Part shown: positions 43,371 to 55,839 of the stretch, in pieces | How positions within the stretch are numbered: the first letter of the stretch is position 1 | Layout: every line of letters starts with the position of its first letter | Source: Thalassospira sp. MCCC 1A03138 | GTDB taxonomy: Bacteria > Pseudomonadota > Alphaproteobacteria > Rhodospirillales > Thalassospiraceae | NCBI RefSeq assembly: GCF_002115785.1 | Contig: NZ_JFJY01000002.1 | Span: forward strand, 186,001 to 250,000 | Direction of reading: 5' to 3' | DNA: 64,000 nt | Position numbers and translations under genes: made by a program | Notes under the pieces: generated by a model | Database searches by the model: none | Seen by the model: only the letters and a program-made list of their open reading frames with translations | Told to the model about the DNA's origin: nothing

Positions 43371-43455
43371 CTGTCTGGAACCGCAATTTTGCGGTCGATT
43401 ATTTATCCAGATCAGTGACTTAATAGGAGCCCAACTATCCATATCGTAATTTGTT

Positions 43456-43470
43456 TTACGTTAACGTCAC
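43456..43470. promoter_or_regulatory. MerR/LiuR-type operator, copy 1
   Basis: The reverse complement of this site is GTGACGTTAACGTAA, identical over all 15 bases to the sites at 45953 and 47718. It is palindromic around GTTAAC. It lies about 60 bp before the SCP2 gene that starts the FadL unit. Confidence 0.75.
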
Positions 43471-43529
43471 TTTGCGTTACAGTGCTGACATAAACAGAAA
43501 AACAACATCAGCTTCACAGGGAGGCGTTC

Positions 43530-43826
43530 GTGGAGGATATCCTCGAATCCGTAAAACAGAAACTTCCGCAATTGCGCGGCCTCAATGCCGTGGTTGCCTT
43601 TGATTGCGGCGAAGACGGACATATAGTCATTGATGCGACCGGCCCCGAGCCGGAAATCAGTGATGACGATATGAGCGACGCGGACTGCATCCTGAAAATC
43701 AAGAAAGCCAATCTGGAAAAGATGATTGCCGGCAAACTTGATCCGATGCTCGCCTTTACAATGGGCAAGCTCAAGATCAAGGGCTCCATGGGAGTCGCGG
43801 CAAAACTTTCATCCATGCTGGATTGA
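43530..43826 (+). CDS. SCP2 sterol-binding-domain protein
   Basis: A 98-aa protein that is essentially one SCP2 domain, a hydrophobic-tunnel fold binding fatty acyl chains or other lipids. The acidic middle (DDDMSDADCILKIKKANLEKM) and the C-terminal FTMGKLKIKGSMGVAAKL are typical. The GTG start follows GGGAGG. It is the first gene of a unit with a DUF6134-like protein and FadL, under an operator shared with the fatty-acid genes. A role as intracellular acyl carrier is inferred. Confidence 0.88.
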   Translation: MEDILESVKQKLPQLRGLNAVVAFDCGEDGHIVIDATGPEPEISDDDMSDADCILKIKKANLEKMIAGKLDPMLAFTMGKLKIKGSMGVAAKLSSMLD

Positions 43827-43849
43827 TTTCTAACGTCAGGGGAACAGGG

Positions 43850-44521
43850 ATGCGGCACAGCTTTATCAAAAGCACCGTTCTTTGCACTTTGGCCGCCGGC
43901 CTGATCGGAAGCCTTGGTGCAATCTCATCGGCGCATGCCGACGAAACACTGAATTATCAGGTCTTGAAGGATGGGGAACCCATCGGCTTTGAAACGGTCG
44001 AAATCACCGACACGCCCGATGGTTATACCGCCACCATCACCACGCGCACCGATGTGAAAGTCCTTTTCCTTCAATTCCAATATGGCCATTCACGCCTTGA
44101 AAAATGGCGGAACGATCAACTTGTGTCCGTTGATACCGATACAAATGATGACGGCTCCCCATATACCTACAAGGCTGAATATGAAGGTGACTGTTTCGAG
44201 GTCGCCGGCAAGGGTGTTGCGAAACGCGATGCCTGTGACGGCGCATGGCCCCTTACGCTCTGGCGCGAGGATATCACCACGAAAACAAGCCTTTACAGCG
44301 TAATCAATGCCGAACCTTACGCTGTGACAACCCGGAAAACCGGGACAGAAACACTTGCCATCAATAACCGGGAAATACCCGCCACACACTATGTCATGAC
44401 CGGGGATGTCCAACGCGATCTCTGGTATGGCGATGACGGCAGGCTTCTGAAAACAAGCTTCGAAAGAAAGGGTTACGACATCGACTTTATCCGGGTCGAT
44501 GCCAAAGACCTTCAAAAATAA
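43850..44521 (+). CDS. DUF6134-like exported protein
   Basis: A 223-aa protein with a Sec signal peptide (MRHSFIKSTVLCTLAAGL..., probable cut after SAHA near residue 31). The mature part is beta-rich with two cysteines (EGDCFEVAG and KRDACDGAW) that could pair in the periplasm. It reads like the DUF6134 group, an assignment made from memory. It sits between SCP2 and FadL in a fatty-acid-regulated unit, so a periplasmic role in lipid handling is plausible. The ATG at 43850 is chosen to place the signal peptide properly. Confidence 0.75.
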   Translation: MRHSFIKSTVLCTLAAGLIGSLGAISSAHADETLNYQVLKDGEPIGFETVEITDTPDGYTATITTRTDVKVLFLQFQYGHSRLEKWRNDQLVSVDTDTNDDGSPYTYKAEYEGDCFEVAGKGVAKRDACDGAWPLTLWREDITTKTSLYSVINAEPYAVTTRKTGTETLAINNREIPATHYVMTGDVQRDLWYGDDGRLLKTSFERKGYDIDFIRVDAKDLQK

Positions 44522-44575
44522 AAGCGGGCGCAAAAAGCGCATTCTTCAAAACCGTTATGATCCAGGGAGAAACCC

Positions 44576-45883
44576 ATGACGTCCAAATTCAAGAAAAGCT
44601 GCCTGTGGGGGGCAGCTTCCGGAACAGCACTCATCTGCGCACTTGCGGCAAGCGGCAGCGCCCATGCTTCAGGCTTTCAGCTTCGCGAAGTCAGTGGCAG
44701 TCTACAGGGTTCGTCCTTTGCTGGCATGTCCACACAAACGGATGATGCATCGCAAATATTCTTCAACCCAGGCTCTGTTGGCCAACTCCGAGAATCGACC
44801 TATTCGGTGGGCACAAGCCTTGTAATGCCAAATGTGAAACTCAAAAGCGGCAGCTTTACCTCAAGCACACTTACTAACGCGGCAGGCAGCGTATCAAACG
44901 CTACCTACGGAGATATGGGTCAGGATGCCCTTGTTCCAAATGCGCATGCCGTCTGGACATTGACAGACCAGCTTAATCTGGGCATCTCGCTCACAACACC
45001 TTGGGGGTTAGTAACCGACTATGAAAGCGACTTTGCCGGTCGTTTCTTCGGCACCACATCCGCCATCAAAACAGCGAACGTCAAACCCGTTCTGGCCTAC
45101 CGTTTTGACAATGGACTTTCCGTTGGTGGCGGGGCGCAGATCCAATATATGGATGCACGTCTGGCCAAAGCCGTGGGCTTTGGTGCCGGCGAGGGTAATG
45201 GCGATGTTACCGGTGACGACCTTGCCGCAGGCTGGACTGCCGGTATGAACTGGGAACTGCCGACCGGCACCCGTATCGGGGCATCCTATGTTTCGGAAAT
45301 CACCCACAACCTGAAAGGCGACATCACGTTTGATAGCGCTGCCCAAGCTGGTGGGTACCGTAATCAAACGGCAGAAGCCAAAGTTACCACCCCCGAATAC
45401 ATTACCTTTGGCATTGCACAGGATATTGGGGAAAAATGGACGATCATGGCTGATGGTCAGTGGACCAATTGGGAATCGATTGGAACACTGAACTTCAGAT
45501 ATGGTGGCGACACCAACGTCAACTTCGCTGGAAACCAGAACAGCACTGCTGACGTCTATAACTGGAGCAGTTCCTGGTTCTATTCGCTCGGCGCTAAATA
45601 TCGCTACGATGAAAACTGGACCTTCCGCGGTGGTGTGGCCTACGATCAGACACCCATATCTGACGAATACCGTTCTGTTCGTATTCCGGATTCAAACCGT
45701 TACTGGTTATCTCTTGGCGCATCGTACAAAGTCGCAGACTGGGCCGACGTAAGTCTCGGTTACACTCATATCTTTGCCCACAACTCAACCGTCAATCACA
45801 CAGAAACCAATGTCGGCACCTTCAGAGGTGAATACGAATCAGAGGTCGACATCATCGCTCTACAGGCGAAATTCCAGTTCTGA
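44576..45883 (+). CDS. FadL/OmpP1-family outer-membrane fatty-acid transporter
   Basis: A 435-aa outer-membrane beta-barrel. After a signal peptide (about 1-32) comes SGFQLREVSGSLQGSSFAG and TDDASQIFFNPG, the FadL N-terminal hatch with its conserved NPA-like NPG. Alternating barrel strands follow, ending in a terminal Phe (ALQAKFQF), as outer-membrane proteins do. It should import long-chain fatty acids or other hydrophobic compounds. It is third in the SCP2 unit and is followed by a terminator. Confidence 0.92.
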   Translation: MTSKFKKSCLWGAASGTALICALAASGSAHASGFQLREVSGSLQGSSFAGMSTQTDDASQIFFNPGSVGQLRESTYSVGTSLVMPNVKLKSGSFTSSTLTNAAGSVSNATYGDMGQDALVPNAHAVWTLTDQLNLGISLTTPWGLVTDYESDFAGRFFGTTSAIKTANVKPVLAYRFDNGLSVGGGAQIQYMDARLAKAVGFGAGEGNGDVTGDDLAAGWTAGMNWELPTGTRIGASYVSEITHNLKGDITFDSAAQAGGYRNQTAEAKVTTPEYITFGIAQDIGEKWTIMADGQWTNWESIGTLNFRYGGDTNVNFAGNQNSTADVYNWSSSWFYSLGAKYRYDENWTFRGGVAYDQTPISDEYRSVRIPDSNRYWLSLGASYKVADWADVSLGYTHIFAHNSTVNHTETNVGTFRGEYESEVDIIALQAKFQF

Positions 45884-45900
45884 TCGGTTATACTGTTCGA

Positions 45901-45943
45901 TGCGGGATGGCGGCTTGCCATTCCGCATCGGGCGGTTTTTTTT
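45901..45943 (+). terminator. Terminator after fadL-type gene
   Basis: Eleven-base arms (45901-45911 and 45917-45927, one wobble) are followed after 8 bp by eight Ts (45936-45943). A second small GGGC/GCCC hairpin spans the T-run. It ends just before the operator at 45953. Confidence 0.65.
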
Positions 45944-45952
45944 GCCCGCAAA

Positions 45953-45967
45953 GTGACGTTAACGTAA
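45953..45967. promoter_or_regulatory. MerR/LiuR-type operator, copy 2
   Basis: GTGACGTTAACGTAA, identical to the copies at 43456 (reverse strand) and 47718. It ends 14 bp before the acyl-CoA ligase ATG, so bound protein would block the start region of that transcript. Confidence 0.75.
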
Positions 45968-45981
45968 TGGAGTTAACGCGT

Positions 45982-47673
45982 ATGAACCAAATAAACGTCC
46001 AAGACGCGCCTGTCCTGCAAAATGGTGTCGATGTCAGCTCGCCGGTGCGCATGCGCCCGGTTCACGAGATTTTTGATGATGCGGCAAAGCGTTTTGCCAC
46101 GCGCCCATGTCTTGATTTCCTGGGTCGAATTTACGACTACGAAGACATTTCCAGACAAATTGATCGCGTCGCCGAAGGCTTTCATCAGCTGGGCGTGCGT
46201 AAAGGCGACAAGGTCGGGCTGTGCCTGCCCAACACGCCTTACTACGTGATCTGCTATTATGCCGTGCTGAAATGCGGCGGTGTCGTTGTCAATTTTAACC
46301 CGCTTTATGCCAAGCGCGAAATCGCCTATCAGATCGAGGATTCCGGTTGCCGCCTGATGGTAACGCTTAATCTGAAGCAGATTTATTCCAAGGTTGCCGA
46401 TTGCCTTGATGTAACCTGCCTGAAGCGGATCGTCGTCTGCGAGATGAGCGATATCCTTCCCCCGGTCAAAAGCGTTCTTTTCAGCCTGTTCAAACGCAGC
46501 GAGCTTGCCGAAATCCCCAGGGATCTGCGTCATATCCCCTTCTCGCGACTGACTGACTGCAAACCCATAAACTTCGTTGCCGACGTAACGGTCAACGATC
46601 TGGCCGTGCTGCAATATACCGGTGGTACAACCGGTCGCCCCAAGGGGGCAATGCTGACCCACGGGAATCTCAGCGCCAATGTCGATCAGCTGACACGCTG
46701 GATGCCCGATGCAAATCCGGGGCACGAAGTCACGCTGTGTGTGCTGCCATTCTTCCATGTCTTTGCCATGACCGTGGCACTGAACACATCGATCAATCTC
46801 GGGGCGGAACTTGTTCTGCAGCCGCGCTTTGAACTTGATGCGTTGTTAAAGGCACTCGACAAGAAAAACGTCACGATCTTCCCCGGTGTGCCGACGATCT
46901 ACACGGCGATTAATAACTCGCCGGAAACGCTCAAACATGATCTGTCTTCGGTCCGTTGCTGCATTTCGGGCGGCGCGCCGCTTCCTGTTGAAGTCAAACA
47001 CCGTTTTGAAGAAATCACCGGCGCCAAACTGGTCGAAGGCTATGGCCTGACAGAAGCCAGCCCGGTCTGCACATGCAATCCGGTCAAGGGCGTGAATAAG
47101 GAAGGATCAATCGGCATTCCGATGCCCGGCGCCGAAATCCAGATCAGGTCGCTTGACCGACCGGATCAAATCATGCCGACCGGCGAGAAAGGCGAGGTTT
47201 GCGTTCGCGGTCCGCAGGTGATGCCCGCATACTGGCAGAACGAGACGGCAACCAGAGAAACCTTTGTCGATGGCTGGCTCAAGACCGGCGATGTGGGCTA
47301 TGCCGATCAGGACGGATATATCTTTCTGGTTGATCGGCTTAAAGACGTCATCCTGTGCAGCGGTTACAATGTCTATCCGCGCGCCATCGAAGAAGCGCTT
47401 TATCTGCACGAACAGATCGCCGAGGTCACCGTAATCGGCGTTCCGGATCAATATCGCGGTCAGGCGCCCAAGGCCTTTGTACGTCTGAAGGACAATGTCA
47501 CCGATGTAACCGCCGAAGATCTTCGAACCTTCCTTGACGACAAGATTTCGAGAATCGAGATGCCGCGCGAAATCGAGATCAGGGAAGAACTTCCAAAAAC
47601 CATGGTCGGCAAATTGTCGAAGAAGGAACTGGTCGAGGAAGAGCGCCTGAAGCGCGAGGGAAAAGCACAATAA
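45982..47673 (+). CDS. fadD: Long-chain fatty-acid-CoA ligase
   Basis: A 563-aa AMP-forming acyl-CoA synthetase that activates imported fatty acids. LQYTGGTTGRPKGAMLTH near residue 210 is the ATP-binding signature. VEGYGLTEASPV near 355, GWLKTGDVGYADQDGY near 435 and the C-terminal KTMVGKLSKKEL with the adenylation lysine complete the family pattern. The ATG at 45982 is preferred because GGAG lies upstream; an ATG at 45967 falls on the operator. It is a separate unit between FadL and the MerR gene. Confidence 0.93.
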   Translation: MNQINVQDAPVLQNGVDVSSPVRMRPVHEIFDDAAKRFATRPCLDFLGRIYDYEDISRQIDRVAEGFHQLGVRKGDKVGLCLPNTPYYVICYYAVLKCGGVVVNFNPLYAKREIAYQIEDSGCRLMVTLNLKQIYSKVADCLDVTCLKRIVVCEMSDILPPVKSVLFSLFKRSELAEIPRDLRHIPFSRLTDCKPINFVADVTVNDLAVLQYTGGTTGRPKGAMLTHGNLSANVDQLTRWMPDANPGHEVTLCVLPFFHVFAMTVALNTSINLGAELVLQPRFELDALLKALDKKNVTIFPGVPTIYTAINNSPETLKHDLSSVRCCISGGAPLPVEVKHRFEEITGAKLVEGYGLTEASPVCTCNPVKGVNKEGSIGIPMPGAEIQIRSLDRPDQIMPTGEKGEVCVRGPQVMPAYWQNETATRETFVDGWLKTGDVGYADQDGYIFLVDRLKDVILCSGYNVYPRAIEEALYLHEQIAEVTVIGVPDQYRGQAPKAFVRLKDNVTDVTAEDLRTFLDDKISRIEMPREIEIREELPKTMVGKLSKKELVEEERLKREGKAQ

Positions 47674-47677
47674 TTCA

Positions 47678-47748
47678 ATACGTTAATGTCACGTCACACA
47701 GAATGGAAAAAATCCAAGTGACGTTAACGTAAACTAATTGACGTAAAG
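47678..47748. promoter_or_regulatory. MerR/LiuR-type operators, copies 3 and 4, and a half-site
   Basis: Three elements precede the MerR gene. An imperfect site (47678-47692) differs from the consensus at two bases. A perfect GTGACGTTAACGTAA lies at 47718-47732. A half-site TTGACGTAAAG lies at 47738-47748. This density suggests autoregulation and control of the downstream beta-oxidation genes. Confidence 0.72.
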
Positions 47749-47777
47749 ATAAAAATATATACCATAAGGGCGATCAA

Positions 47778-48182
47778 ATGACGAAAATTGACGACCGGTT
47801 TTATACCGTTCCCGAACTGGCGGAGAATCTGGGGGTCACACCACGCACCATCCGGTTTTACGAACAAAAGGGTCTCGTAGCACCACAGCGCGCTGGCACC
47901 ACCCGGATTTATACCCGTCAGGACAGGGCAAGAATGCTGATCATCCTGCGGGGCAAGAGGCTGGGTTTCACGCTGAAGGAGATTGCAGATTATCTGGATC
48001 TTTATGGCGCAGACCCCACCCAGGCCGAGCAGATCAAAATGCTGCTGACCCGGGTTCGGGAACGGATAGAAGCCCTGGAAGATCAACGCCAGGCACTGGA
48101 CATCACTTTGGATGAATTGCGTGACATCGAACAACAATCGATTGATGCGCTTAAAGAAAAAGGACTCGATCCGGTAGCGTAA
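47778..48182 (+). CDS. MerR-family regulator, LiuR-like
   Basis: A 134-aa regulator. The N-terminal winged helix (YTVPELAENLGVTPRTIRFYEQKGLV, about 10-35) and the long C-terminal dimerisation helix (about 80-120) are MerR features. Like LiuR, it lacks the cysteines of metal-sensing members. LiuR-type regulators control branched-chain amino-acid and fatty-acid breakdown in proteobacteria. It is the first gene of the beta-oxidation unit and has operators directly upstream, so it is the likely binder of the repeated 15-bp site. The ligand is unknown, perhaps an acyl-CoA. Confidence 0.9.
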   Translation: MTKIDDRFYTVPELAENLGVTPRTIRFYEQKGLVAPQRAGTTRIYTRQDRARMLIILRGKRLGFTLKEIADYLDLYGADPTQAEQIKMLLTRVRERIEALEDQRQALDITLDELRDIEQQSIDALKEKGLDPVA

Positions 48183-48229: not shown

Positions 48230-49366
48230 ATGACCAATGCCGTTATTGCCGGATATGTCCGGTCGCCTTTCACCCCGGCACGCAAAGGTGCCCTTGCCAA
48301 GGTCCGTCCTGACGATCTTGCGGCACAGGTCGTCAAAGGTCTGGTGGATAAAACCGGTATCGATCCCAACACGATCGAGGATCTGGTTCTGGGCTGCGCC
48401 TTCCCCGAAGGCGAACAGGGTCTTAACGTCGCCCGCCTGATCACGTTCCTTGCCGGTCTGCCGCGCTCGGTCGGCGGTGTTACGGTCAACCGTTTCTGCG
48501 GATCATCCATGCAGTCGATCCATCAGGCAGCAGGCGCAATCGCGATTGGTGCCGGTGATGCCTTTATCTGTGCCGGTATCGAAAGCATGTCACGCGTGCC
48601 GATGATGGGCTTCAACCCGATGCCGAACCCGGCCCTGTATAAGGAAATGCCCGAGGCATATATGGGCATGGGTGATACGGCGGAAAACGTCGCAACCAAA
48701 TACAGCCTGTCGCGCGCCGATCAGGAAGCCTTTGCCGTTGAAAGCCATAAAAAGGCCGCCGCCGCACAGGCAGCAGGAAAATTTGTCGATGAAATCATCC
48801 CGATTGAAGGCCCCGATGGCACAATCGCCGAAGACGGCTGCATTCGCGGCGACACCACAGCCGAAGGTCTGGCCGATCTGAAACCGGCTTTCAAGGCGGA
48901 TGGTGTTGTGACTGCGGGCACATCCTCGCCGCTGACCGACGGTGCATCTGCCGTTCTGGTCTGCTCCGAGGAATACGCAAAAAAACACGGCCTCACACCG
49001 CTGGCACGGATCAAATCTGTCGCTGTTGACGGTTGCCTGCCGGAAATCATGGGGATCGGCCCGGTTGGTGCCTCGAAAAAGGCACTGGCGCGCGCTGGTA
49101 TCAAGGCATCCGACCTTAATGTCGTTGAACTGAACGAAGCATTCTCGTCGCAGGCAATGGCCAGCATTTCCGACCTTGGCCTGGATATCAAAACCGTCAA
49201 TATCGATGGCGGCGCACTGGCCATCGGGCATCCGCTGGGGGCAACGGGTGCGCGTATCGTTGGCAAGGCCGCCGCCCTTCTTAAACGTGAAGGCGGCAAA
49301 TACGCACTTGCCTCGCAATGTATTGGCGGGGGTCAGGGGATCGCGACCATTCTGGAGGCGATGTAA
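48230..49366 (+). CDS. fadA: 3-ketoacyl-CoA thiolase (acetyl-CoA acyltransferase)
   Basis: A 378-aa thiolase that cleaves 3-ketoacyl-CoA with CoA in the last step of beta-oxidation. The nucleophilic Cys is in VNRFCGSSMQSIHQAAGA (about 89). The His of GGALAIGHPLGATGAR (about 334) and the second Cys of ASQCIGGGQGIA (about 364) complete the active site. Its stop overlaps the next start by one base (TAATG). With the two following genes it forms a fadA-fadN-fadE set as in Bacillus. Confidence 0.95.
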   Translation: MTNAVIAGYVRSPFTPARKGALAKVRPDDLAAQVVKGLVDKTGIDPNTIEDLVLGCAFPEGEQGLNVARLITFLAGLPRSVGGVTVNRFCGSSMQSIHQAAGAIAIGAGDAFICAGIESMSRVPMMGFNPMPNPALYKEMPEAYMGMGDTAENVATKYSLSRADQEAFAVESHKKAAAAQAAGKFVDEIIPIEGPDGTIAEDGCIRGDTTAEGLADLKPAFKADGVVTAGTSSPLTDGASAVLVCSEEYAKKHGLTPLARIKSVAVDGCLPEIMGIGPVGASKKALARAGIKASDLNVVELNEAFSSQAMASISDLGLDIKTVNIDGGALAIGHPLGATGARIVGKAAALLKREGGKYALASQCIGGGQGIATILEAM

Positions 49367-51690
49367 TGACCAGCATCAAACAGGTCGCCGTTATCGGCGC
49401 CGGTGTTATGGGGGCTGGGATTGCCGCCCATATCGCCAACTCGGGCACGCCCGTGCTGTTGCTTGATATCGTTCCCGCAGGATCAAAAAACCGCAACGCG
49501 GTGGCCGAAGGTGCGGTTGCCAAAATGCTGAAAACCGATCCGGCCCCGTTCATGTCCAAACGTGTGGCAAAGCTGATCACGTGCGGCAATATCGAGGACG
49601 ACCTTGATAAGCTTTCCAAATGTGACTGGATCGTCGAGGCCGTCATCGAACGCCTTGATATCAAACAGGATCTGTATCGCAAGATTGACGCGGTTCGCGC
49701 CAAGGGCTCGGTTGTCTCGTCAAACACCTCGACCATTCCGCTGGCCACACTGATCGATGGCATGGGCGACGGGTTTGCACAGGATTTCATCATCACGCAT
49801 TTCTTCAACCCGCCGCGCTATATGCGTCTGCTGGAACTGGTCGGATCAAACGTCACCCGAAACGGCGTCATCGACATGGTCGAGCAATTTGCCGATCATA
49901 AACTGGGCAAGACCTGTGTCATCTGCCATGACAAGCCGGGCTTTATCGCCAACCGCCTTGGTGTCTACTGGATTCAGGCCGCCATGGTCGAAGCGATGGA
50001 TCGGGGATTGACTGTCGAAGAAGCCGACAGCGTCATCGGTCGCCCGTTCGGTATTCCCAAAACCGGTGTCTTTGGCCTGATGGATCTGGTGGGTCTGGAT
50101 CTGATGCCCCATGTGCAATCCAGCATGGCAGGTGCCCTTGATAAATCCGATCCGTTCCACTCGATTTACCGCGAAAGCGATCTGGTCGGCAAACTGATCG
50201 CGGATGGCTATACCGGTCGCAAGGGCAAGGGCGGTTTTTACCGTCTGAACCGTGAAGGTGGCGAAAAGGTCAAGGAATCGGTCAATCTTCAGACCGGTGA
50301 ATTCGCCAGATCGGAAAAAGCCCGCCTTGAAAGCGTCCGTTCTGCCGGTAAAGACCCGCGCAAAATGATGGAAGCAAAGGACAAGGGGGGCCTTTATGGT
50401 CGTGCCGTGATGGCCAAAACCCTTGCCTATGCCGCCTTCATCGCCGAAGAAGCCGCCAATTCGATTGTCGATGTCGATGACGCGATGAAACTTGGCTATG
50501 CGTGGAAAACCGGTCCGTTCGAACTGATCGATGCCATCGGGGTCGATACCCTGATTGCCATGCTTGAAGCGGACGGTATCGAGGTCCCGGCATTACTCAA
50601 AAAGGCGGCCGGAAAATCGTTTTACAAGGTCGAAAACGGCACGCTGTTCTTCCTTGGTTTTGATGGCAAATATGCCGACGTCGTTCGTCCGGACGGTGTT
50701 CTTCTGCTTGAAGACATCAAACGCAAATCCGAACCGGTTGTCGGCAACCGCGCCGCATCGCTTTGGGATATCGGTGACGGCGTCGCCTGCCTTGAATTCC
50801 ATACCAAAATGAATGCGCTTGATGCCGATGTTCTTGGCATGATCAAGACATCCATCCGGACTGTCAAAAAGCAGTTCAAGGCGATGGTGATCTATAACGA
50901 AGGCAGTAATTTCTCCGCCGGGGCCAACCTTGGTCTGGCGCTGTTTGCCGCCAATATCGCCGCGTGGCCGGAAATCGAAAACCTCGTTGAAACCGGTCAG
51001 GAAACCTACAAGGCCCTGAAATATTCGCCCTTCCCGGTTGTTGGCGCGCCCAGCGGCATGGCATTGGGTGGTGGCTGCGAGGTCCTTTTGCATTGTGATG
51101 CCGTACAGGCCCATGGGGAAACCTATATCGGTCTGGTCGAACCCGGCGTTGGCCTGATCCCGGCCTGGGGCGGGTGCAAGGAAATGATCCGTCGCTGGTC
51201 CGAAAACCCGAAATTCCCCAAGGGCCCGATGGCACCAAGTGCCAAGGCGTTTGAAATCATTTCGGTGGCAACCGTTGCCAAATCCGCAATGGAAGCCAAG
51301 GAAAACCTGTTCTTCCGCGAGGGTGATGGCATCACCATGAACCGCAACCGTCTGCTGGCCGATGCCAAGGCGCGCGCGCTTTCCATGGTCGATGGTTACG
51401 AAGCCCCCGAAGAATTCACCTATCGCCTGCCCGGCGAAAGCGCACGGGTCGCCTTCGAAATGGCGGTTGATGGTTTCTATCGTCTGGGCAAGGCCACCGA
51501 TTACGACCGTGTCGTCGCAGGTGAACTTGCCAGGGTTCTGGCCGGTGGTGACACCGACGTCACCGAAGAACTTTCCGAAGACGACATTCTGGAACTGGAG
51601 CGCGAAGGCTTCATGCGTCTGGTCCGCAACGAAGGCACCATGGCCCGGGTCGAACATATGCTTCTGACCGGCAAGCCGTTGCGAAACTAG
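49366..51690 (+). CDS. 3-hydroxyacyl-CoA dehydrogenase/enoyl-CoA hydratase (FadN-type)
   Basis: A 774-aa bifunctional beta-oxidation enzyme. The dehydrogenase comes first (about 1-420): QVAVIGAGVMGAGIAAHIA is the NAD-binding motif, and ITHFFNPPRYMRLLELV is the catalytic His region. The crotonase-like hydratase domain follows (about 480-770; ALGGGCEVLLHCDAVQAH). This order is the reverse of E. coli FadB and matches FadN-type proteins. The ATG at 49366 overlaps the thiolase stop by one base and has GGAGG upstream. Confidence 0.93.
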   Translation: MTSIKQVAVIGAGVMGAGIAAHIANSGTPVLLLDIVPAGSKNRNAVAEGAVAKMLKTDPAPFMSKRVAKLITCGNIEDDLDKLSKCDWIVEAVIERLDIKQDLYRKIDAVRAKGSVVSSNTSTIPLATLIDGMGDGFAQDFIITHFFNPPRYMRLLELVGSNVTRNGVIDMVEQFADHKLGKTCVICHDKPGFIANRLGVYWIQAAMVEAMDRGLTVEEADSVIGRPFGIPKTGVFGLMDLVGLDLMPHVQSSMAGALDKSDPFHSIYRESDLVGKLIADGYTGRKGKGGFYRLNREGGEKVKESVNLQTGEFARSEKARLESVRSAGKDPRKMMEAKDKGGLYGRAVMAKTLAYAAFIAEEAANSIVDVDDAMKLGYAWKTGPFELIDAIGVDTLIAMLEADGIEVPALLKKAAGKSFYKVENGTLFFLGFDGKYADVVRPDGVLLLEDIKRKSEPVVGNRAASLWDIGDGVACLEFHTKMNALDADVLGMIKTSIRTVKKQFKAMVIYNEGSNFSAGANLGLALFAANIAAWPEIENLVETGQETYKALKYSPFPVVGAPSGMALGGGCEVLLHCDAVQAHGETYIGLVEPGVGLIPAWGGCKEMIRRWSENPKFPKGPMAPSAKAFEIISVATVAKSAMEAKENLFFREGDGITMNRNRLLADAKARALSMVDGYEAPEEFTYRLPGESARVAFEMAVDGFYRLGKATDYDRVVAGELARVLAGGDTDVTEELSEDDILELEREGFMRLVRNEGTMARVEHMLLTGKPLRN

Positions 51691-51708: not shown

Positions 51709-53493
51709 ATGGCCCAATATAAAGCACCGCTGCGCGACATGCGCTTCGTCCTGACCGAACTGTTTGACTATAACGACATCAACCAGATGCCCGGATGCGA
51801 GGATTTCACACCGGACGTCGTCGATGCCGTTCTCGAAGAAGCCGCCAAGGTCTGCGAGGAACTCCTGTTCCCGATCAACCGCACAGGTGACGAGGAAGGC
51901 TGTCATTGGGATGATGGTGTTGTCACCACGCCCAAGGGCTTCAAGGAAGCCTATCAGACCTTTGCCGAAGGCGGATGGACCGGCATTGCCTGCGATCCCG
52001 CCTATGGCGGTCAGGGTGCGCCGAAAACGATCAATGCCCTGGTCGAGGAAATGATCTGTTCGACCAACCTGTCATTCGGGATGTATCCGGGCCTGTCTTT
52101 TGGGGCCTATGCCGCCCTTCACAGCCACGCCTCGGACGAACTGAAGGACAAATATCTTCCGAAAATGGTCGAAGGCACGTGGGCTGGCACCATGTGCCTG
52201 ACCGAACCGCATTGCGGTACCGATCTTGGCATCATCAAGACCAAGGCCGAACCGCGTGAAGACGGGTCTTATGCCATTTCCGGCACCAAGATTTTCATCT
52301 CGGCCGGGGAACATGACCTGACGGAAAACATCATCCATCTGGTTCTGGCGAAACTGCCCGATGCGCCCAAGGGGACCAAGGGCATTTCCCTGTTCCTGGT
52401 CCCGAAATTCATGGTTGGCGATGACGGATCGCTTGGCGATCGCAACGCGGTCAAATGCGGGTCGATCGAACACAAGATGGGCATCAAGGCATCCGCCACC
52501 TGTGTCATGAACTTTGATGGCGCAATCGGCTATCTGGTCGGCGAACCCCATCAGGGCATGCCCGCCATGTTCACCATGATGAACCAGGAACGCCTTTCGG
52601 TCGGTATTCAGGGTCTTGGACTTGGCGAAGCCGCCTATCAGGGGGCGGCTGCCTATGCCCGTGACCGCCTGCAAGGAAGGGCATTGACCGGCCCCAAAAG
52701 CCCCGACAAACCTGCCGACTCCCTGCTGGTACATCCCGATGTACGCCGGATGCTTCTGACCGCACGCGCGACCAACGAAGGATGCCGGGCAATGGGCATA
52801 TGGGTGGCGCGCGCGCTTGATACCGCCAAACACCATGCCGATCCGGTCAAACGCGAAGAAGCCGACGAATTCGTCCAGCTCATGACGCCAATCGTCAAGG
52901 CCCTGTTCACCGATTGGGGCTTTGATAACACCAATCTCGGCGTGCAGGTCTTTGGCGGCCACGGTTACATCCGGGAATGGGGTATGGAACAATATGTTCG
53001 TGATGCCCGCATCGCCCAGATTTACGAAGGCACCAACGGCATTCAGGCCCTTGATCTTGTCGGGCGTAAAATGCCGGCAAAGGCCGGTCGTTACCTTCGG
53101 CGCTTCTTCCACCCGGTACAGGAATATATCGAAGCCAATGTCTCGAAGGACGGGCTTGGCGATTTCATCCAGCCACTGGCAAAGGCCTTCATGCGTTTGC
53201 AGCAGGCAACCGGTGAACTGGCCCAACGCGGCATGAAAAACCCGAACGAAGCCGGGGCTGCAGCCACCGAATTCCTGCGTCTGTTTGGTCTGGTCGCGGT
53301 TGGCTACATGTGGGCCCGCATGGCGGAAATCGCGTTGGCGAAACAGGACGACGATCCGGACGGTTTCTATAAGGCCAAACTGATCACCGCCAAATTCTAT
53401 ATGGAACGCATCCTGCCGCAGTCCGGCGCGCTGTTCAGCGCGATGATGGCCGGGTCCGACACCATGATGGAACTGGACGAGGATCTGTTCTGA
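51709..53493 (+). CDS. Acyl-CoA dehydrogenase
   Basis: A 594-aa FAD-dependent acyl-CoA dehydrogenase for the first step of beta-oxidation. It belongs to the long form with an extra C-terminal domain (DmdC/AcdA-like). GTMCLTEPHCGTDLGIIKT near residue 165 is a FAD/substrate-binding signature. GVQVFGGHGYIREWGMEQ near 410 and the catalytic Glu in AQIYEGTNGIQALDL near 438 follow. It is preceded by GAGGAGGA. It should pass electrons to ETF; no etf genes are in the window. Confidence 0.93.
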   Translation: MAQYKAPLRDMRFVLTELFDYNDINQMPGCEDFTPDVVDAVLEEAAKVCEELLFPINRTGDEEGCHWDDGVVTTPKGFKEAYQTFAEGGWTGIACDPAYGGQGAPKTINALVEEMICSTNLSFGMYPGLSFGAYAALHSHASDELKDKYLPKMVEGTWAGTMCLTEPHCGTDLGIIKTKAEPREDGSYAISGTKIFISAGEHDLTENIIHLVLAKLPDAPKGTKGISLFLVPKFMVGDDGSLGDRNAVKCGSIEHKMGIKASATCVMNFDGAIGYLVGEPHQGMPAMFTMMNQERLSVGIQGLGLGEAAYQGAAAYARDRLQGRALTGPKSPDKPADSLLVHPDVRRMLLTARATNEGCRAMGIWVARALDTAKHHADPVKREEADEFVQLMTPIVKALFTDWGFDNTNLGVQVFGGHGYIREWGMEQYVRDARIAQIYEGTNGIQALDLVGRKMPAKAGRYLRRFFHPVQEYIEANVSKDGLGDFIQPLAKAFMRLQQATGELAQRGMKNPNEAGAAATEFLRLFGLVAVGYMWARMAEIALAKQDDDPDGFYKAKLITAKFYMERILPQSGALFSAMMAGSDTMMELDEDLF

Positions 53494-53548: not shown

Positions 53549-54079
53549 GTGAATCTGATTTTCCGACTGATCCGTGTGCTGGTCTTGTCCTGGTTGCGGC
53601 CCGGTCTGCATCCGCTTGATCCGTCTGTCTTGTCATTCCGGGCGTGGCCATTGGATCTGGATATCAATGTCCATATGACCAATTCGCGCTACTTCGCCCT
53701 GATGGATCTCGGACGCACCGAACTGATCCTGCGCAACGGCATTGCCAGACAGATGCTTAAACGCAAATGGCAGCCGGTCGTGTCCGGGTCCACCATGCGG
53801 TTCAAGCGCGCGATCAAACCGTTTCAGCGCTTCAAACTCGAAACCCAGGCCCTTTATTGGGACGAAAAGGGTTTCTATCTGGAACAGCGCTTTACCGCGA
53901 AGGGCAAAACTCTGGCACTTGGCGTTGTGAAAGCCGTGTTTGTCGGCCCCGATGGCATCGTCCCGCCCGAACAGATTTGCAGGCTGGTGGGTGCGGATGA
54001 AACGTCACCGGTCATGCCCGACTGGCTTTCAGGCTGGCCGGACATGGAAACCGCCATCGAAGCACGGCTTGCCGCCTGA
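53549..54079 (+). CDS. Hotdog-fold acyl-CoA thioesterase (THEM6/4HBT-like)
   Basis: A 176-aa single hotdog-domain protein. The catalytic-site segment DLDINVHMTNSRYFALMDLGR near residue 37-57 is the 4HBT/THEM6 pattern. An N-terminal hydrophobic stretch (LIFRLIRVLVLSWL) may attach it to the membrane. It would release fatty acids from CoA and so adjust the acyl-CoA pool. The GTG start has AAGGAG at 7 nt. It lies within the beta-oxidation unit. Confidence 0.85.
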   Translation: MNLIFRLIRVLVLSWLRPGLHPLDPSVLSFRAWPLDLDINVHMTNSRYFALMDLGRTELILRNGIARQMLKRKWQPVVSGSTMRFKRAIKPFQRFKLETQALYWDEKGFYLEQRFTAKGKTLALGVVKAVFVGPDGIVPPEQICRLVGADETSPVMPDWLSGWPDMETAIEARLAA

Positions 54080-54117: not shown

Positions 54118-54924
54118 ATGACTTCAAATGATGCCGTCTTGCTGTCGATCACCGATCAGATCGCAACGATCACAATGAACCGGCCCGACCGGATGAATGC
54201 GCTTGATCAATCCATGATCGAAGGATTTGGCACCGCGCTTGACCGGATCGAGGCGGAAATTGCCAATATCGGCGCGGTCATTATCGAAGGATCAGGCGGC
54301 ACTTTCATGGCGGGCGGCGATGTTAAGTTCTTTTATGAATTGTCGCAAAACCCGGCCGAAGAATCCCGCCCCCAGATCGAAACCATGATCAACCGGGTCC
54401 ATGACATCATCATCCGCCTAACCGCCCTGCCCCGTCCGGTTATTGCAAAGCTCGAAGGGGCGGTTGCCGGGTTTGGCATCAGCCTGATGAATGCCTGCGA
54501 CCTTGCGGTTGCTGCCGAGGAAACCGTTTTCACACTGGCCTATATCCATATCGGCACATCACCCGACGGCGGATCAACCCATTCGCTGCCCCGCCTTGTC
54601 GGCATGAAAAAGGCCAAGGAAATCGCCTTTCTGGGTGACCGGTTCACCGCGACCGACGCCCACGAATGCGGCCTGATCAACAAGGTCGTCCCCGCCGATC
54701 AACTGGCATCGGCGACAGCCAAATATGCGACACGCCTTGCCGACGGTCCGCGCGACGCCCTTGCCCGAACCAAGGCGTTGCTCAACACCGCGCTTGAACA
54801 TGATCTGGCCGAACAATTGGAACTGGAAGCCACCGCCTTCGCCGATTGCGCCGGAAGCCACGACTTCCGCGAAGGTGTCAGCGCCTTTGTCGAAAAACGC
54901 AGCCCGCAATTTGGCAAATCATAA
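54118..54924 (+). CDS. Enoyl-CoA hydratase/isomerase (crotonase family)
   Basis: A 268-aa crotonase-family enzyme. ITMNRPDRMNALDQSMIEG near the N-terminus, the oxyanion-hole motif SGGTFMAGGDVKFF near 60 and LEGAVAGFGISLMNACDLAV near 112 are typical. An acidic residue sits in the THSLPRLVG region near 158. Specific substrate cannot be given; isomerase of unsaturated fatty acyl-CoA or hydratase are both possible. The start has a strong GGGAGG. Confidence 0.9.
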   Translation: MTSNDAVLLSITDQIATITMNRPDRMNALDQSMIEGFGTALDRIEAEIANIGAVIIEGSGGTFMAGGDVKFFYELSQNPAEESRPQIETMINRVHDIIIRLTALPRPVIAKLEGAVAGFGISLMNACDLAVAAEETVFTLAYIHIGTSPDGGSTHSLPRLVGMKKAKEIAFLGDRFTATDAHECGLINKVVPADQLASATAKYATRLADGPRDALARTKALLNTALEHDLAEQLELEATAFADCAGSHDFREGVSAFVEKRSPQFGKS

Positions 54925-54945: not shown

Positions 54946-55839
54946 ATGGCAAGTTTAGCTGGCAAAACACTGTTCATCACCGGCGCATCGCGCGGGATCG
55001 GCAAGGCAATCGCGCTGCGTGCGGCACGCGACGGGGCAAATGTCGCGATCATCGCCAAAACTGATGAACCCCATCCCAAACTGCCCGGCACCATTCACAG
55101 TGCTGCCGCCGAGATCGAGGAAGCCGGTGGCAGGGCACTCGCCCTTAAAACCGACATTCGCGAAGAAGACCAGATCGCCGATGCCGTCGCCAGAACCGTT
55201 GATGCCTTTGGCGGGATCGACATCCTGATCAACAATGCCAGTGCGATCAATCTGACCCCGACCCTGCAAACACCGATGAAACGGTTTGACCTGATGTATC
55301 AGGTCAACACCCGGGCCAGTTTCGCCTGCGCGCAGGCCTGCCTGCCGCATCTGATGAAATCCGATAATCCGCATATCCTGACCATGTCGCCACCGCCCAA
55401 CCTGTCGGCACAATGGTTTGCCAATCACACGGCCTATACGATTTCAAAATACGGTATGAGCCTGGTGACGCTGGGTCTTGCTGCCGAATTCGAAGACGAA
55501 GGTGTCGCTGTCAACTCGCTTTGGCCCGTAACCGTGATCGAAACCGCCGCCCTTAACATGATCCCCGGTCTTGAACAGGGTCGCGCACGTAGCCCCGAAA
55601 TCCTTGCCGATGCCGCGCACGCCATCCTGACATCCCCCGCACGCGACGTTACGGGGGGCTTCTTCACCGATGAAAGCGTGCTCGAAGCCATCGGGATCAC
55701 CGATTTCGAACCCTACAACCTGACACCGGGCAAGGCTCCTTACCCGGACTTCTTCCTTGAAATGGACCGGAACGGCAAAAACGATCCGGCCGTCGCCCGG
55801 CTTCTTGAAAAACTGTCCGCGGCACGCAAGGCCGCCTGA
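54946..55839 (+). CDS. HSDL2-like short-chain dehydrogenase/reductase
   Basis: A 297-aa SDR. The cofactor motif TGASRGIGKAIALRAA is at residues 11-26 and NNASA near 99. The catalytic Tyr-x3-Lys is in AYTISKYGMS near 165. A longer C-terminal extension ends in the NLTPGKAPYPDFFLE segment, as in HSDL2 homologues linked to fatty-acid metabolism. It is the last gene of the beta-oxidation unit and is followed by a strong terminator. Confidence 0.88.
   Translation: MASLAGKTLFITGASRGIGKAIALRAARDGANVAIIAKTDEPHPKLPGTIHSAAAEIEEAGGRALALKTDIREEDQIADAVARTVDAFGGIDILINNASAINLTPTLQTPMKRFDLMYQVNTRASFACAQACLPHLMKSDNPHILTMSPPPNLSAQWFANHTAYTISKYGMSLVTLGLAAEFEDEGVAVNSLWPVTVIETAALNMIPGLEQGRARSPEILADAAHAILTSPARDVTGGFFTDESVLEAIGITDFEPYNLTPGKAPYPDFFLEMDRNGKNDPAVARLLEKLSAARKAA

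Follow-up and report, generated by a model that had tools for sequence, protein, structure and literature searches.

A candidate MerR-type regulator and its putative operators at a fatty-acid degradation locus of Thalassospira

Introduction

LiuR is described as a MerR-family repressor (PMC3223726) that regulates branched-chain amino-acid catabolism (PMC3223726, PMC5343134), and FadR, PsrA, and FadP, which control fatty-acid degradation genes, are assigned to the GntR or TetR families (PMC5343134). The assignment of Rru_A1994 of Rhodospirillum rubrum, with its LiuR/ILV box, is to branched-chain amino acids and to butyrate (PMC7238569).

The Thalassospira locus described here carries a MerR-family gene, regulator A, among genes for fatty-acid uptake, activation, and oxidation. 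A resembles LiuR in being a MerR-type protein with a predicted palindromic operator, catabolic acyl-CoA genes as targets, and probable autoregulation, and the LiuR operator half-sites match the ones present here before LiuR-linked genes. It differs in that A falls in a clade sister to LiuR that goes with fatty-acid genes, whereas a paralogue, C, falls with liu-linked MerRs, and in that most of the sites linked to A have the centre TA/AT instead of AA/TT. Kazakov et al. (J Bacteriol, 2009) reportedly assigned control of fatty-acid degradation to LiuR orthologues in alphaproteobacteria, which would likewise be LiuR-type MerRs acting on fatty-acid genes. Rru_A1994 is similar to A in that it is a MerR from the Rhodospirillales, has a site upstream of the gene that encodes it, and acts in acyl-CoA catabolism, but its published assignment is not to a fadL/fadD locus (PMC7238569). 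FadR, PsrA, and FadP control the same class of genes but are unrelated DNA-binding proteins (PMC5343134). Our literature search, which did not reach most subscription papers, including that of Kazakov et al., found no account of A in Thalassospira or of a fad-linked sister of LiuR.

We propose, with a probability of roughly 0.7, that a 15-mer repeated at this locus is the operator of A, which as a dimer would repress three fad promoters, including that of its own gene, and would be released by a fatty-acid catabolite.

Results and Discussion

The window, meaning the whole stretch of DNA analyzed (64,000 nucleotides; C12:186001-250000 of a 4.56 Mb Thalassospira assembly), contains the following features.

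43456-43470, - strand: candidate operator O1, upstream of SCP2-DUF6134-fadL; exact 15-mer, + strand reads TTACGTTAACGTCAC
43455-43483, + strand: putative SCP2-unit promoter, read from sequence; TTTACG (43455-43460), 17-bp spacer, TACAGT (43478-43483)
43530-43826, + strand: SCP2 sterol-carrier domain protein (Pfam PF02036, E 1.2e-19)
43850-44521, + strand: DUF6134 protein (Pfam PF19630)
44576-45883, + strand: FadL/TodX outer-membrane transporter (Pfam PF03349, E 1.2e-86)
45953-45967, + strand: candidate operator O2, upstream of the acyl-CoA ligase; exact 15-mer, with GGAG and the start codon directly downstream
45982-47673, + strand: long-chain acyl-CoA ligase, FadD type (Pfam AMP-binding); top NCBIfam matches are long-chain-fatty-acid--CoA ligase, under curated cut-offs
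47678-47692, - strand: degenerate candidate operator O3b, upstream; two-mismatch copy, centre 41 bp from O3
47718-47732, + strand: candidate operator O3, upstream of merR; exact 15-mer
47738-47743, + strand: TTGACG half-site, 20 bp from O3; also putative merR -35, with a 16-bp spacer to TACCAT (47760-47765)
47778-48182, + strand: MerR-family regulator A, proposed cognate repressor (Pfam MerR_1, MerR-DNA-bind)
48230-49366, + strand: thiolase, FadA type (Pfam Thiolase_N/C; TIGR01930 above cut-off)
49366-51690, + strand: 3-hydroxyacyl-CoA dehydrogenase/enoyl-CoA hydratase, FadN type (Pfam 3HCDH_N, 3HCDH, ECH_1)
51709-53493, + strand: acyl-CoA dehydrogenase, FadE (Pfam)
53549-54079, + strand: thioesterase-like protein, probable operon extension (Pfam 4HBT_2; synteny)
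54118-54924, + strand: enoyl-CoA hydratase family protein, probable operon extension (NCBIfam matches; synteny)
54946-55839, + strand: short-chain dehydrogenase, probable operon extension (Pfam adh_short; synteny)

The 15-mer, GTGACGTTAACGTAA, matches exactly at O1, O2, and O3 and with two mismatches at O3b. Its seven matches in the window (the same sites read on the opposite strand included) compare with 0.74 expected, and none of 100 shuffles reached seven. A sequence-only reading of the window had placed the three exact copies, the two-mismatch copy, and the half-site at 47738 just where we find them, and had named the units that they precede (SCP2-DUF6134-FadL, acyl-CoA ligase, and MerR-thiolase-FadN-dehydrogenase), identities that Pfam backs. 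The whole-genome scan that it called for bore out the motif in its exact form, which occurs three times in the 4.56 Mb genome, always within the same 4.3 kb of the fad locus, but not in its looser form: at up to two mismatches there were six forward and six reverse matches genome-wide, no more than for a control pattern read backwards (7 and 9), so the looser copies are informative by position only. Four of them lie upstream of genes, namely a thioesterase (C30:307206), thioesterase-isovaleryl-CoA dehydrogenase (C12:60000), MccB (C29:170141), and a MerR paralogue (C30:3951); three within open frames (C12:562760, C23:151657, and C30:26825) look like chance occurrences.

The gene order SCP2-DUF6134-FadL-FadD-MerR-FadA-FadN-FadE-thioesterase-ECH-SDR is intact in 22 named relatives, all of them Thalassospira (21) except for a single MAG of the Rhodospirillales. 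The palindromes of O2 and O3 are present in all 22, the latter with the TA centre, and the core palindrome of O1 is kept in 19, with a TA centre in 18 and an AT centre in L081, and is missing in L076, L079, and L080. An O3b counterpart with at most three mismatches occupies the same place in 16 of the 22. In 23-row alignments the flanks of the operators drift; upstream of merR, neither the O3 core nor the TTGACG that follows it varies in any row. The offsets of O3b (41 bp) and TTGACG (20 bp) from O3 would amount to approximately whole helical turns. The 27-bp block before FadD (45953-45979), which holds the operator, GGAG, and a second GTTAACG, is also invariant in 23 of 23 rows, an invariance that extends into the usually free stretch up to the ligase start codon.

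Regulator A belongs to the MerR superfamily by its matches to PF13411 (1.9e-18) and PF09278 (1e-12), both above cut-offs, and the solved structures closest to it are those of CueR and further regulators of the MerR type. It contains no cysteine, which separates it from the metal- and thiol-sensing type (CueR, ZntR, MerR), and it scores far under the cut-offs of the NCBIfam ZntR, MerR, and CueR models. The nearest named relative is in a T. lucentensis strain (99% identity). Three close MerR paralogues are found in the genome (100, 52, and 49% identity, the next at 33%), and three LiuR-type paralogues were present in all 29 Thalassospira genomes examined.

In a MerR tree of 65 rows, from which L061 (a near copy), L016, L019, L096, L103, and L114 had been excluded beforehand, the MerRs inside fad loci cluster with A (support 91/91) and the outgroup MerRs adjoining liu operons cluster with paralogue C (support 92/94), supports that fall under the strict mark and are not decisive. 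Paralogue B, which adjoins an acyl-CoA-synthetase-like/GNAT gene, nests in the fad-linked group; it had been considered as the LiuR of this genome and was rejected, the tree placing C there. A is thus not placed among the liu-linked MerRs of this tree, and its gene and the exact 15-mer are found at fad genes and not at liu/ivd. It shares with the LiuR group an ACGT-type palindrome, TNACGTNNACGTNA, which stands before A and before LiuR-linked genes alike. These features suggest, though not decisively, that C is the best LiuR candidate and that A represents a sister lineage linked to fad. The C gene itself (G000:C31:11887-12249, L142) is not beside liu genes, unlike its counterparts in several outgroup genomes; it comes after signalling-type open frames and has a degenerate array of three half-sites upstream.

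The distribution of sites among other genomes points to the adjacent MerR as the likely cognate regulator. Among 150 genomes of the order, 66 had a MerR match, and loci were taken from some of these by best scores and spread. Fifteen outgroup fad loci had this MerR next to them, and 13 of these carried a site with at most one mismatch upstream of a fad gene (0.14 expected from shuffles; the exceptions were L169 and L208), as against none of five FadN-type loci lacking the MerR (Fisher p 0.0014). In two of these five (G080 and G113) FadN is only 47% identical and perhaps not a strict orthologue, and the contrast without them is 13/15 versus 0/3. The strongest evidence that A, and not LiuR, would read the fad sites is that operator and clade co-vary. 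Four genomes belonging to one related genus have fad operators that have become TRACSTATAGGKWA (the CTATAGG form), with all matches at the fad locus and none in two genomes of the same genus without A or in the window's genome, whereas at liu, examined in two of these genomes (L179 and L180), the operators stay ACGTTTACGT.

The wider motif is not exclusive to fatty acids, as might have been supposed, given that liu/ivd and thioesterase promoters share its half-site grammar. The palindrome TNACGTNNACGTNA occurs 11 times in the genome against 4 for the control, and 310 against 171 times across the 29 genus genomes, exceeding the control in each of them; in this genus scan the places of the sites were listed for some genomes only. 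Three of the 11 exact palindromes are at fad and the others at non-fad promoters, including two overlapping copies upstream of thioesterase-isovaleryl-CoA dehydrogenase-thiolase, one upstream of an ivd-type unit, one upstream of mccB-ech-mccA-hmgL, and two overlapping copies upstream of a second thioesterase, the gene names outside the window coming from a reading of translations and not from a family scan. Also among the non-fad palindromes are a TT-centred one (L144:4939, G000:C1:366938) directly before a MoxR-like ATPase/VWA pair with no obvious acyl-CoA link, and a perfect TTTACGTAAACGTAAA (L145:5441, G000:C1:794440) upstream of a gene that we take to resemble DUF2889. Across the genus, a site with the 14-base core of the latter is listed in most genomes and TT-centred sites in 29 of 29.

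Liu/ivd units in this genome have AA/TT or mixed-centre sites. In a comparison of outgroup loci, 14 of them fad and 15 liu-type (the Thalassospira loci, L200, which has no site, and L178, L181, L184, and L208 being omitted), centres were exclusively TA/AT in 6 of 9 fad-linked and 2 of 24 LiuR-linked sites, with a p of 0.0017 that is optimistic given the near-duplicates L175/L176 and L179/L180, the post hoc choice of classes, and the non-independence of rows. The self-complementary centre at fad and AA/TT at liu may be described as a tendency; a strict TA-versus-AA rule was rejected on the exceptions L084 and L165. Arrays in which three ACGT half-sites follow each other at 6-bp intervals, mixing TA with AA/TT centres, precede two PaaI-like thioesterase genes (L143:10002-10021, G000:C12:60001-60020, and L148:5201-5220, G000:C30:307200-307219), the former heading the isovaleryl-CoA dehydrogenase unit.

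This shared grammar makes it conceivable, although in our estimation unlikely, that the true LiuR (C) or B binds the same sites, fat and branched-chain amino-acid catabolism then forming one regulon under redundant or competing regulators. ACGT-type sites with at most one mismatch also lie upstream of the genes for paralogues B and C (in a comparison that covered the paralogues other than C of G004), both kinds of centre meet in the thioesterase arrays, and the three paralogues may cross-bind. Against this, four of the five fad-type loci without an adjacent MerR are in genomes that have another LiuR-type MerR and yet no site, the operators of one genus diverged at fad and not at liu, and the centres differ as described. 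Mixed TA+AA arrays are likewise present in the LiuR-only genomes L197 and L198, where A is evidently not required for them, and we rejected such arrays as proof of joint control by A and LiuR. A more speculative and rather improbable idea is that the three paralogues share one ACGT half-site alphabet and are kept partly apart by the central dinucleotide (TA/AT for fat, AA/TT for branched-chain amino acids), so that tandem arrays at the thioesterase and isovaleryl-CoA dehydrogenase promoters would let dimers of different paralogues exclude each other and couple the catabolism of fat and amino acids.

Control by A as a repressor is also suggested by the geometry of the promoters, which were read by eye. 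O1 covers the putative -35 (TTTACG) of the SCP2 unit, 17 bp from TACAGT, with conserved TAca.T columns, and O2 ends 1 bp before GGAG, positions that both fit repression; O3 is directly upstream of TTGACG-16-TACCAT at merR. MerR proteins are often activators, and A, with its canonical MerR DNA-binding domain and its structural neighbors, might be a classical one that turns promoters on by twisting a 19-20 bp spacer. We regard this as improbable, and somewhat more so than binding by LiuR or B: no operator within a conserved 19-20 bp spacer was seen at the three promoters in the 23-row alignments, and the best pair at SCP2 is 17 bp apart with the operator over the -35. The operator positions thus appear more compatible with repression than with activation of the classical MerR kind, LiuR is likewise described as a repressor (PMC3223726), and the lack of such a spacer together with the lack of cysteine in A favors an autoregulated repressor released by an acyl metabolite. 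Three identical, closely spaced copies could also be chance or a recently duplicated promoter segment with no regulator, but this is highly implausible and already contradicted by conservation, each site having different flanks although the cores persist in 22 relatives, and by the shuffles.

In the repressor model, two subunits of A would each read one ACGT half-site of TNACGT-TA-ACGTNA, and dimers on the three promoters would block uptake (SCP2-DUF6134-fadL), activation (the acyl-CoA ligase), and beta-oxidation (merR-thiolase-fadN-acyl-CoA dehydrogenase). The operator of the merR unit would let A repress its own gene, and A would be released from DNA by an acyl-CoA or by some other catabolite of fatty acids. 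The earlier proposal of one autoregulated regulon for fatty-acid uptake, activation, and oxidation agrees with these results as a local fad regulon, with operators conserved across the genus and tracking the adjacent MerR, and does not hold as a single LiuR regulon, in view of the three paralogues, the fad-linked clade, and the same grammar at liu/ivd. Its MerR/LiuR-like gene is indeed a LiuR-type MerR, but one of three, grouping with the fad-linked clade beside LiuR.

Conclusions

Regulator A appears to be well conserved and, for the most part, an ordinary relative of a regulator already known from amino-acid breakdown, and its interest lies in the tidy split between paralogues. For fatty-acid use in Thalassospira, the locus supplies a candidate regulator with a set of operators, all open to testing. 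Its clean pair of paralogues allows the operators of two catabolic regulons to be followed across families as they diverge. It also advises caution, in that a LiuR-like MerR need not be a regulator of branched-chain amino acids.
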